From: Parvularcula sp.
GTDB lineage: Bacteria > Pseudomonadota > Alphaproteobacteria > Caulobacterales > Parvularculaceae
Length of the DNA: 64,000 bases
Direction: 5' to 3'
Assembly: GCA_002704915.1 (NCBI GenBank)
Contig: PAIP01000034.1
Location: forward strand, 131,827 to 195,826
Below the pieces are notes generated by a model, which worked only from the letters and a program-made list of their open reading frames with translations, searched no databases and had not been told where the DNA came from. A program made the position numbers and the translations under genes. Positions 37,364 to 39,625 of the stretch are shown in pieces (position 1 is the stretch's first letter; each line of letters starts with the position of its first letter).

Positions 37364-39625
37364 ATGTCAGAATTGCTTCTCGAACTGTTCTCCGAAGAGA
37401 TCCCTGCGCGCATGCAGGGACGCGCCGCCGCCGACCTTGAAAAGGCGGTGGGCAAGGCGCTGATGGACGCCGGCTTCATGCCCGAAGGGGTGAAGGGCTT
37501 CGCCGGGCCCCGGCGCCTGACGGTCGCAGCAGCGGGCATCCCCGCGCGCCAGCCGGACCGGCGCGAGGAGAAAAAGGGCCCGCGCGTGGGCGCCCCCGAC
37601 AAGGCGGTCGAGGGCTTCCTGAAATCGGCGGGGCTGACCTCGCTCGATCAATGCGAACAGCGCGAGGACAAAAAGGGCGCCTATTGGGTCGCGGTGATCG
37701 ACCAAAAGGGCCGCGACACGGGCGAGCTCATCGCCGAGTTTATTCCGCAAATCGTGCGCGGTTTTTCCTGGCCGAAGTCCATGCGCTGGGGCGACGGCGA
37801 GTTGCGCTGGGTGCGCCCGTTGCATTCCATTCTCTGCGTCTTCGATGGCGAGGTGGTGAATTTCGAAATCGACGGAATCAAGTCGGGCGACAAGACGCAA
37901 GGTCATCGCTTCCTGGCGCCGGGTGAGATTCAGGCGCGGTCTTTCGAATCTTATGCGGCGGCGTTGAAAAAAGCCAAGGTCATTCTCGACGCTGAAGAGC
38001 GCAAGGAGATGATCGCCGGCGACGCCGCGACCTTGTGCAGGGCGCAGGGGCTCGAGCTTGTGGACGATCCGGGCTTGCTGAATGAAGTCTCAGGCCTTGC
38101 CGAATGGCCGGTCCCCATGATGGGCTCTTTCGACGAAAAATTCCTGAGCGTGCCTGATGAAGTGCTCACCGCCTCCATGCGCGGGCACCAGAAATATTTT
38201 TCGGTGAAGGACCCGGAGATCGGGCGGCTCGCGAACAAGTTCGTCTACGTCGCGAATATCGAGGCGCCGGACGGCGGCGCCGCCATGCGCGAAGGTTATG
38301 AGCGCGTCCTGACCGCGCGTCTTTCCGATGCGTGGTTCCTTTACAATCAGGATTTGAAGCGCTCGCTCGAAAGCCGCGTCGACGACCTGAATAACGTGAC
38401 CTTCTTTGAAGGGCTGGGCAGCATCGGCGACAAGGCGCGCCGCATCGCTGCGCTGGCGAAAGAGATCGCGCCATCCGTGGGCGCCGATCCGGCCGCGGCG
38501 GAACGCGCCGCGCTGCTCGCCAAGGCAGACCTTGTTACGGGCATGGTCTATGAGTTTCCGGAACTGCAAGGGGTGATGGGCCGGTATTATTACCTGGCGC
38601 AGCACAGTTACTCCTCCCCCGTTCACGGGGGAGGTGTCGAGGCCAAAGGCCGAGACGGAGGGGGCGATAGCGCAAAAGCCCCCTCAGTCACGCCGGATAA
38701 ATCCGGCGCGACAGCTCCCCCGCAGGCGGGGGAGCAGGAAGCCCAAGCAATCGCCGACGCCATCCGCGATCATTACAAGCCCGCGGGTCAGGATGATGAG
38801 GTGCCGACCGCACCGATCAGCGTCGCTGTCGCGCTCGCCGACAAGATCGACACGCTGACGGCGTTCTGGGCCATCGATAAAAAACCGACGGGCTCGAGCG
38901 ATCCGTTTGCGCTGCGAAGGGCTGCGTTGGGTGTGATAGGGATTGCAATTGAAAACAGCATCCGTCTTCAGTTGACAGCAATCATTGATAATACGGCTTG
39001 GCATTCAATGCCGGGAACAGGTGCAATAGGCGCTCAAGCAATCGGTGCGGCATCTATTGGTGGGGAAGAATCTGTTCATGCAAGCTCAAGTGATCTTCTC
39101 TCATTCTTCCACGACCGCCTAAAAGTCTACCTCCGCGACAAGGGCTTCAAGCACGACCAGATCGATGCGGTGCTGACCGATGCGGATGGCAATCTGCAGG
39201 ATGATCTGGTTCTGATTGTCGCGAAACTCGAAGCGCTGGCCGACTTCCTCAAAACCGATGACGGCGCCAATCTCGCGGCGGCCTACAAACGCGCGGGCAA
39301 CATTCTCAAGGCCGAGGAAAAGAAAGACAAGAAACCCGCTGATCCGGACGCCGTCGATGAAAAGCTGTTGAAAGACGCGGAAGAAAAGGCGCTTTACGCC
39401 GCCATGAAAGACGCGGAAGGCGCCGTCGAAAAAGCCGTCGCAGCGGAAGATTTCGAGGCCGCCATGTCCGCGCTCGCGAAACTGCGCAAGCCGCTCGACG
39501 CGTTCTTCGAAAAAGTCACGGTCAACGCCGATGACGCAAAACTCCGCGCCAATCGCCTGTCGCTTCTTGCGCGTCTGACCGCCGCCACGGCAAGAGTCGC
39601 CGATTTCTCGAAGCTGGAAGGCTAA
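37364..39625 (+). CDS. glyS: Glycyl-tRNA synthetase beta subunit, with a translated repeat insertion
   Basis: A 753-residue GlyS beginning MSELLLELFSEEIPARMQ, with family stretches FSWPKSMRWGDGELRWVRP, SMRGHQKYF, FEGLGSIGDKARR, the HD-like region PISVAVALADKIDTL and DPFALRRAALGV. It pairs with GlyQ for tRNA binding and proofreading. Between LQGVMGRYYYLAQ and AIADAIRDHYKP lie about 45 residues (HSYSSPVHGGG... to ...PPQAGEQE) that are absent from typical GlyS; they are encoded by a palindromic repeat (38611-38734). A second patch at about 38925-39110 (IENSIRLQLT to SSSDLLSFF) is AT-richer and longer than usual. The frame remains open throughout, so the product is probably functional. The start at 37364 is chosen because family similarity begins there. 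Confidence 0.95.
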   Translation: MSELLLELFSEEIPARMQGRAAADLEKAVGKALMDAGFMPEGVKGFAGPRRLTVAAAGIPARQPDRREEKKGPRVGAPDKAVEGFLKSAGLTSLDQCEQREDKKGAYWVAVIDQKGRDTGELIAEFIPQIVRGFSWPKSMRWGDGELRWVRPLHSILCVFDGEVVNFEIDGIKSGDKTQGHRFLAPGEIQARSFESYAAALKKAKVILDAEERKEMIAGDAATLCRAQGLELVDDPGLLNEVSGLAEWPVPMMGSFDEKFLSVPDEVLTASMRGHQKYFSVKDPEIGRLANKFVYVANIEAPDGGAAMREGYERVLTARLSDAWFLYNQDLKRSLESRVDDLNNVTFFEGLGSIGDKARRIAALAKEIAPSVGADPAAAERAALLAKADLVTGMVYEFPELQGVMGRYYYLAQHSYSSPVHGGGVEAKGRDGGGDSAKAPSVTPDKSGATAPPQAGEQEAQAIADAIRDHYKPAGQDDEVPTAPISVAVALADKIDTLTAFWAIDKKPTGSSDPFALRRAALGVIGIAIENSIRLQLTAIIDNTAWHSMPGTGAIGAQAIGAASIGGEESVHASSSDLLSFFHDRLKVYLRDKGFKHDQIDAVLTDADGNLQDDLVLIVAKLEALADFLKTDDGANLAAAYKRAGNILKAEEKKDKKPADPDAVDEKLLKDAEEKALYAAMKDAEGAVEKAVAAEDFEAAMSALAKLRKPLDAFFEKVTVNADDAKLRANRLSLLARLTAATARVADFSKLEG
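38611..38734. repeat. Palindromic repeat element inserted in frame within glyS
   Basis: Starts with CCTCCCCCG-TTCA-CGGGGGAGG (38613-38634), continues with GGCC-AAA-GGCC, paired GGGGGC/GCCCCC, CGCCGGAT-AA-ATCCGGCG, and ends with CTCCCCCGC-AGGC-GGGGGAG (38715-38734). Such CTCCCCCG...CGGGGGAG multi-hairpin units are usual intergenic repeats in this bacterial group. Here the unit is read in frame as a Gly/Pro/Ser/Ala-rich loop. Confidence 0.85.

Follow-up and report, generated by a model that had tools for sequence, protein, structure and literature searches.

Several kinds of bacterial palindromic repeat are close enough to the one described here to be compared with it. Rickettsia palindromic elements (RPE) are palindromic repeats of 105-146 b that occur both between genes and in frame in conserved protein genes, and one RPE-bearing product was demonstrated to be translated and active (PMC2229807). 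In Rickettsia, such insertions are spread across many unrelated genes, with 44 in R. conorii (PMC10969869). The GTAG/CGTC repetitive extragenic palindromes (REPs) are described as 20-40 b units tagged GTAG or CGTC. PMC3733652 places them in coding genes, among them tRNA synthetases of X. oryzae, E. litoralis and S. alaskensis, and reports that two Xanthomonas species differ in the REP found at roughly one position of recB. RU/ERIC repeats of enterobacteria are likened to miniature inverted-repeat transposable elements (MITEs) and keep reading frames inside annotated genes, as single cases in varied genes (PMC2759123). The CcrM-associated intergenic repeats (CIR) of Caulobacter are ~110 b long, have inverted arms and carry GANTC; PMC2229807 states that none was found in genes and that stops occur in all six frames. 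Here we describe a palindromic repeat of ~124 b that is translated in frame inside glyS, the gene for the glycyl-tRNA synthetase beta subunit, in a 64,000-nucleotide stretch of the Parvularcula sp. genome GCA_002704915.1 (the window; its genome is G000 below).

The repeat is present in many copies in its genome, it is read in frame, and a sister genome has a short loop at its place. The same site is reused in related genomes by different hairpin-forming inserts, and the open frame is kept. The interpretation preferred here, with a probability of roughly 0.72, is that a resident non-autonomous palindrome, of a MITE-like or REP-like kind, inserted into glyS and survived as an in-frame, stop-free, disordered loop, and that this loop recurrently takes up repeats.

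The repeat and its host gene

The features of the locus are as follows, in window coordinates.

37364..39625, + strand: glyS, glycyl-tRNA synthetase beta subunit, 753 residues, with the repeat translated inside (Pfam, NCBIfam, 7yse_C alignment)
38591..38755, + strand: GlyS loop in its extended form, 55 residues vs 11 in the sister genome G005, for the most part predicted disordered; coordinates verified on the sequence
38608..38740, unstranded: outer inverted repeat closing the element; arms 38608-38639 and 38709-38740, 78% complementary
38611..38734, + strand: palindromic repeat, ~124 b, ~42 residues when translated in frame; 25 own-genome matches; fold z -8.93
38610..38637, unstranded: hairpin 1, of the type CTCCCCCG..CGGGGGAG; arms 38610-38622 and 38625-38637
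38641..38651, unstranded: hairpin 2, stem GGCC/GGCC, from the RNA fold
38651..38692, unstranded: hairpin 3; arms 38651-38665 and 38678-38692
38687..38712, unstranded: hairpin 4; arms 38687-38698 and 38701-38712
38714..38735, unstranded: hairpin 5, GCTCCCCCGC / GCGGGGGAGC; arms 38714-38723 and 38726-38735

A preliminary description, made from the DNA letters, had named the host gene GlyS and proposed that a five-hairpin palindrome was read there as about 45 residues of a loop rich in Gly, Pro, Ser and Ala. Both parts hold. The protein matches tRNA_synt_2f (2.4e-186) and DALR_1 (1.7e-11) in Pfam and scores 762 bits with NCBIfam TIGR00211 (glyS); the score lies above the cut-off of 300, so the name is right. 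The frame is open over all 753 residues, and ~42 of them come from the repeat. In the alignment with E. coli GlyS (7yse_C, 6.1e-113), residues 4-410 and 458-751 pair with chain residues 6-417 and 421-688, which flank the insert. The loop of the sister genome G005 is ALEQNEPAEIA, 11 residues at the place of the window's 55. The 55-residue loop is longer than the translated repeat because flanking codons have also changed.

The five hairpins are borne out by a listing of inverted repeats and by the RNA fold of 38611-38734. This fold has an energy of -88.8 kcal/mol compared with a shuffle mean of -51.85, and it was equalled by none of 200 shuffles. In the minimum-energy fold, the outer arms pair with each other and replace hairpins 1 and 5. 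Hairpin 1 is also the start of most copies in the same genome. The 124-b window copy begins with CTCCTCCCCC and finishes with GGGGGAG. A search of 38300-39000 gave no Rfam family match up to E 1, and a known RNA family was rejected as the identity of the repeat on this ground. The main hairpin was found nowhere else in the 64-kb window, where the search returned the glyS copy alone.

An AlphaFold2 model (mean pLDDT 78.1, pTM 0.50), which resembles solved GlyRS structures by Foldseek, gives pLDDT below 50 at residues 417-453, between helices 399-415 and 455-469. The inserted stretch is thus likely a disordered loop, although the shallow alignment of 18 sequences behind the model could also lower confidence. 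The model agrees with the proposed loop in placing a low-confidence stretch between two helices. A second GlyS region, at residues ~526-580 (window ~38938-39104), is highly variable in length among genomes, has no obvious repeat character and has low pLDDT at 544-573.

Across the genome, the 124-b unit has 25 matches at E <= 0.001, its own place included, and this count is a lower bound because scoring covered 40 of the 50 first-look candidates. Frames are open in 24 of the 25 copies, and in many copies the alternative frames encode Arg/Leu-rich peptides or contain stops. Besides GlyS, the copies inside genes include an E2 acyltransferase (L002), where the repeat lies in frame between the lipoyl and E3-binding domains, an in-frame copy in a phosphodiester glycosidase (L006), and a squalene-hopene cyclase at both of two contig ends. 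Recognised genes hold at least 4 of the 25 copies. Ten frames were scanned per genome in G000 and in G268, a second carrier treated below, and the in-gene counts are lower bounds in both. Six of the ten in G000 and seven of the ten in G268 had no Pfam match and were left uncounted as genes. L013 and L260 were also left out since the repeat precedes the recognised domain.

The GlyS loop and other sites across the order

How general is the extended loop? The order searched, which we take to be GTDB Caulobacterales, is represented by 398 genomes, and the nearest named relatives of the window GlyS are Marinicaulis and other Parvularculaceae. In a first alignment of 29 relatives, 21 loops have 11 residues, two have 17 and 21, and six have 40-64. 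The segment is thus not conserved in all GlyS homologs, being missing from the sister genome and from most parsed homologs, and the alignment confirms an insertion. An insert-free GlyS query (from G004) matched 382 of the 398 genomes, of which 79 were hit at least twice. Among 113 parsed loops from distinct genomes, a set chosen to take in carriers and some insert-free relatives and so enriched in carriers, 68 have 29-84 residues, 39 have exactly 11 and six have 10 to 21. Together with G338, whose 46-residue loop lies outside this set and has no z value, at least 69 of the 382 matching genomes, in five families, are measured carriers of a long loop. Among 80 named loci, 39 had an 11-residue loop, 4 a long one, 2 were misparsed and 35 were missed by the pattern.

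The open frame is kept. When 69 genomes were re-searched, both halves of GlyS lay on one contig in 64, and in 64 of 64 they shared one open frame. Of these 64, 63 are long-looped (G055 unmeasured), and the loop of G250 has 18 residues. Not counted as carriers are G250, G055 (loop not parsed), G260, G368 and G272 (halves on two contigs) and G359 (one half). The G247 loop (L064) was dropped, the G182 loop (L069) lies outside the parsed set, and the double-match genomes G026, G169, G369 and G381 were left aside, as one match was strong and unbroken. G026 also has a second, divergent GlyS at C59:3800-6099, in two pieces, one with an in-frame stop, its other GlyS being on C123. The second GlyS may be a paralog, a transfer or bin contamination.

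The insert peptides vary by lineage, for example HPEVPAKRASKDG in G009, HPTPALPSRGGRDA in G268, VIPAGAQRKAGTQ in G235, SPLPLDGEGVGGWG in G343 and SPLAGEGREGG in G172. Glycine, proline, serine and alanine make up 55% of the inserts vs 30% of the flanks, and hydrophobic residues 12% vs 33%. With 40 shuffles for each value, the hairpin z of 68 inserts has a median of -4.5 and is <= -3 in 52 and <= -2 in 58. The 136 flanks have a median of -0.39, with <= -3 in 3 and <= -2 in 13. The loop of G113 (L140) has 71 residues, a z of 0.3 and no hairpin character. In the window's own family, the first loop residue is A in all 23 eleven-residue loops, whereas 11 of the 12 longer ones begin with Y or H, a pattern in these sequences that hints at a structural adjustment and looks like a recurring compensating change.

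Further evidence comes from searching three of the inserts back against genomes, where they matched other places in most of the carriers tried. Places are fewer than matches, as the query itself is counted and some palindromes are matched on both strands. The G009 insert gave 8 matches in G009, 8 in G007, 4 in G020, 31 in G182, 26 in G383, 16 in G289 and 11 in G047, with 1 in G000, which carries a different repeat, and, among non-carriers, 1 in G004 and 0 in G005. The G268 insert, for which the copy counts are lower bounds because part of the first-look candidates was scored, gave 67 in G268, 37 in G159, 26 in G246, 6 in G238 and 9 in the non-carrier G065. The G152 insert gave 7 in G152, 9 in G119, 6 in G193, 53 in G235 and 2 in the non-carrier G056.

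The genome G268 has 26 repeat-bearing places, at least 4 of them in recognised genes: two in GlyS and one each in an E2 linker and RsmE. Its GlyS (L154) carries the second copy of the same repeat nearer the C-terminus, at residues ~815-870 of the translated frame. In G235, GlyS (L152) has a further odd Gly/Ser/Ala-rich stretch after HDLIDAVFALG, which is possibly a third insertion site.

A comparable site exists in the squalene-hopene cyclase gene. In G000, contig C57 ends within the repeat in the cyclase frame, and C53 starts within the repeat and the cyclase frame goes on; the assembly thus breaks inside the repeat. A complete in-frame insert lies within one contig in G025, with an open frame of 718 residues. 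An insert-free cyclase query matched 51 of the 398 genomes, 48 at E <= 2.4e-33, and the cyclase is split at the site in six genomes (G025, G019, G009, G032, G000 and G017). The repeat is seen in 5 of the 48, in one frame in G025, G019, G009 and G032 and at two contig ends in G000. Orientation and frame are identical in all five of these visible inserts. In G017, the contigs break at the site and the repeat is not visible there.

Gains, losses and rival explanations

Was the insert gained repeatedly or lost repeatedly? On a GlyS tree of 35 rows (685 columns, loop removed), the insert state needs at least 9 changes, a count that does not tell gain from loss. Supported pairs of full and empty sisters are G000/G005 (100/99), G019/G026 (100/98) and G182/G033 (100/100). 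An order-wide tree of 175 columns gave 26 state changes; as 61 of its 110 inner branches had support under 80, the 35-row tree is relied on instead. The rows of neither tree were randomly sampled. Since the empty loops all have the usual length of 11 residues, repeated gain seems likelier than repeated exact loss, though an empty loop might also be restored by exchange of gene segments.

Outside the order, a class-wide draw of 385 genomes gave 320 with a match, five from the same order and 315 outside it. Double GlyS matches occurred in 2 of the 315, G456 and G543, and neither looks repeat-derived. G456 has a second GlyS copy on another contig with a plain loop, and the G543 loop of ~26 residues is like that of its congener G411 and not repeat-like by eye. 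The loops inspected were those of G543, G456, G411 and G641. The double-match test misses inserts of ~15 extra residues, as the similar loop of G411 gave one match.

The most likely explanation of these results is the following sequence of events. Mobile non-autonomous palindromes, presumably transposed in trans, would land widely over the genome. Within genes, the survivors would be in-frame, stop-free copies that encode a loop of small residues, and the glyS copy would be one of them, a Gly/Pro/Ser-rich, predicted disordered loop between two GlyS helices. Different repeats in related genomes would enter the same GlyS point, and likewise one loop of squalene-hopene cyclase. The inserts would be close to neutral, and their recurrence would come mainly from an unusually tolerant site and less from targeting.

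Several points weigh against this interpretation. The insertion event itself is not observed, and no target-site duplication is evident by eye at the GlyS junctions. Of 24 genomes tested, 3 have the REP-type Y1 transposase (Y1_Tnp), all of them among the 12 carriers and none among the 12 non-carriers, and this enzyme was rejected as a general mover. The hairpin z is above -2 in 10 of the 68 long loops, and those of G113, G312, G209, G223 and G011 are unlike repeats; some of these ten may be decayed or of other origin. Searched with the G268 insert, the carrier G281 gave 0 matches, and the carrier G357 has just 1 match to the G152 insert. The predicted disorder depends on the alignment of 18 sequences. 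Pure tolerance does not readily account for the use of a single loop by about a sixth of the order. On the window's own contig, a Y1 transposase lies at G000:C36:23750-24103 (L262).

A wider idea, doubtful at present, is that the GlyS loop is an order-wide landing and exchange site, where resident palindromes are captured in frame and can be swapped, so that it would be a renewable repeat-derived peptide cassette. The corresponding rival to tolerance, which we judge unlikely, is that the insertion machinery prefers the glyS and cyclase sites, or that resident repeats are exchanged there by recombination. It would account for the same GlyS loop being filled with different repeats in five families, and for the uniform orientation and frame of the five cyclase inserts; selection predicts such a bias too, because of what the other frames encode. 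Within a clade supported at 100/100, the flank YLAES is common to G007, G009 and G019, yet the repeat of G019 differs from that of G007 and G009, a point in favour of this rival. GlyS holds 3 of the 8 in-gene copies of G000 and G268, two genomes that were both picked as GlyS carriers. No common target motif is apparent by eye, no systematic motif search having been made. The repeats of G000 and G268 lie in different E2 paralogs (25% identity; the pyruvate dehydrogenase E2 cut-off is passed only by the one in G268), so E2 is not a target gene shared by the two genomes.

It is improbable that the insert is kept for a function, either as an mRNA hairpin that regulates translation or stability or as a peptide that alters GlyS. 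Similar inserts common to relatives (for example G046, G076, G088 and G050; G063, G080 and G037) would suit such a role, as would the adjustment suggested by the residue at the loop start. Against it, insert sequence and length vary widely among carriers, sister genomes do without the insert, and the Rfam search of the region was empty up to E 1.

An old low-complexity loop that merely resembles repeats, with no insertion, is very improbable. Such a loop has a parallel in the second GlyS region, where residues ~540-575 vary in length without obvious repeats. But 39 of the 45 shorter loops among the 113 have exactly 11 residues, as do 39 of the 80 named loci, and the inserts that were searched back match other genomic places. 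Least credible is an artefact of assembly or binning of metagenome-assembled genomes, since, although many genomes are drafts and the G000 assembly breaks in the cyclase copy, inserts occur in one-contig genomes such as G268 and G182, the loop of G182 recurs in Aquisalinus flavus CP042288, and the G025 cyclase insert is inside one contig.

Comparison with known systems

The window repeat has the terminal inverted repeats of a MITE in its outer arms. With RU/ERIC it shares a MITE-like build and a frame kept inside a gene, and it differs in its hosts. It resembles CIR in its inverted arms, its similar length and its occurrence in related bacteria. It departs from CIR in its GANTC content, as over 130 b from the match start 5 of the 25 copies contain this motif and the window copy does not, and in having open frames in nearly all copies. 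It is like the GTAG/CGTC REPs as a short palindrome inside coding genes, a synthetase among them; in contrast to them, the unit is 124 b and has neither tag at its ends.

In-frame coding palindromes are thus a known kind. The new part would be, as far as the sequences tell, that different repeats reuse a single loop throughout an order. The literature searched yielded no report of repeated insertion at one GlyS site, a search that had most subscription journals and supplements outside its scope. The empty sisters beside full ones are natural before-and-after pairs. With such pairs one can study how selfish DNA turns into protein, if a site is picked or simply tolerated, and how a newly acquired peptide becomes adapted.

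The closest likeness is to RPE, which the preliminary description had invoked. It stands for the way of working, as the window repeat is a palindrome with five hairpins within the RPE size range, multi-copy and in frame inside genes (GlyS, E2, the glycosidase and the cyclase). The repeat is not classed as an RPE here, as the comparison is with the description of RPE and the nearest named relatives are Parvularculaceae and not Rickettsiales. The further proposal that an alphaproteobacterial repeat of this sort makes peptide insertions is supported by the in-frame, multi-copy repeat and by the recurrent GlyS inserts. Whereas the coding palindromes of Rickettsia are described as scattered over many unrelated genes, here one loop of an essential enzyme is filled time and again by different repeats in five families of an order.
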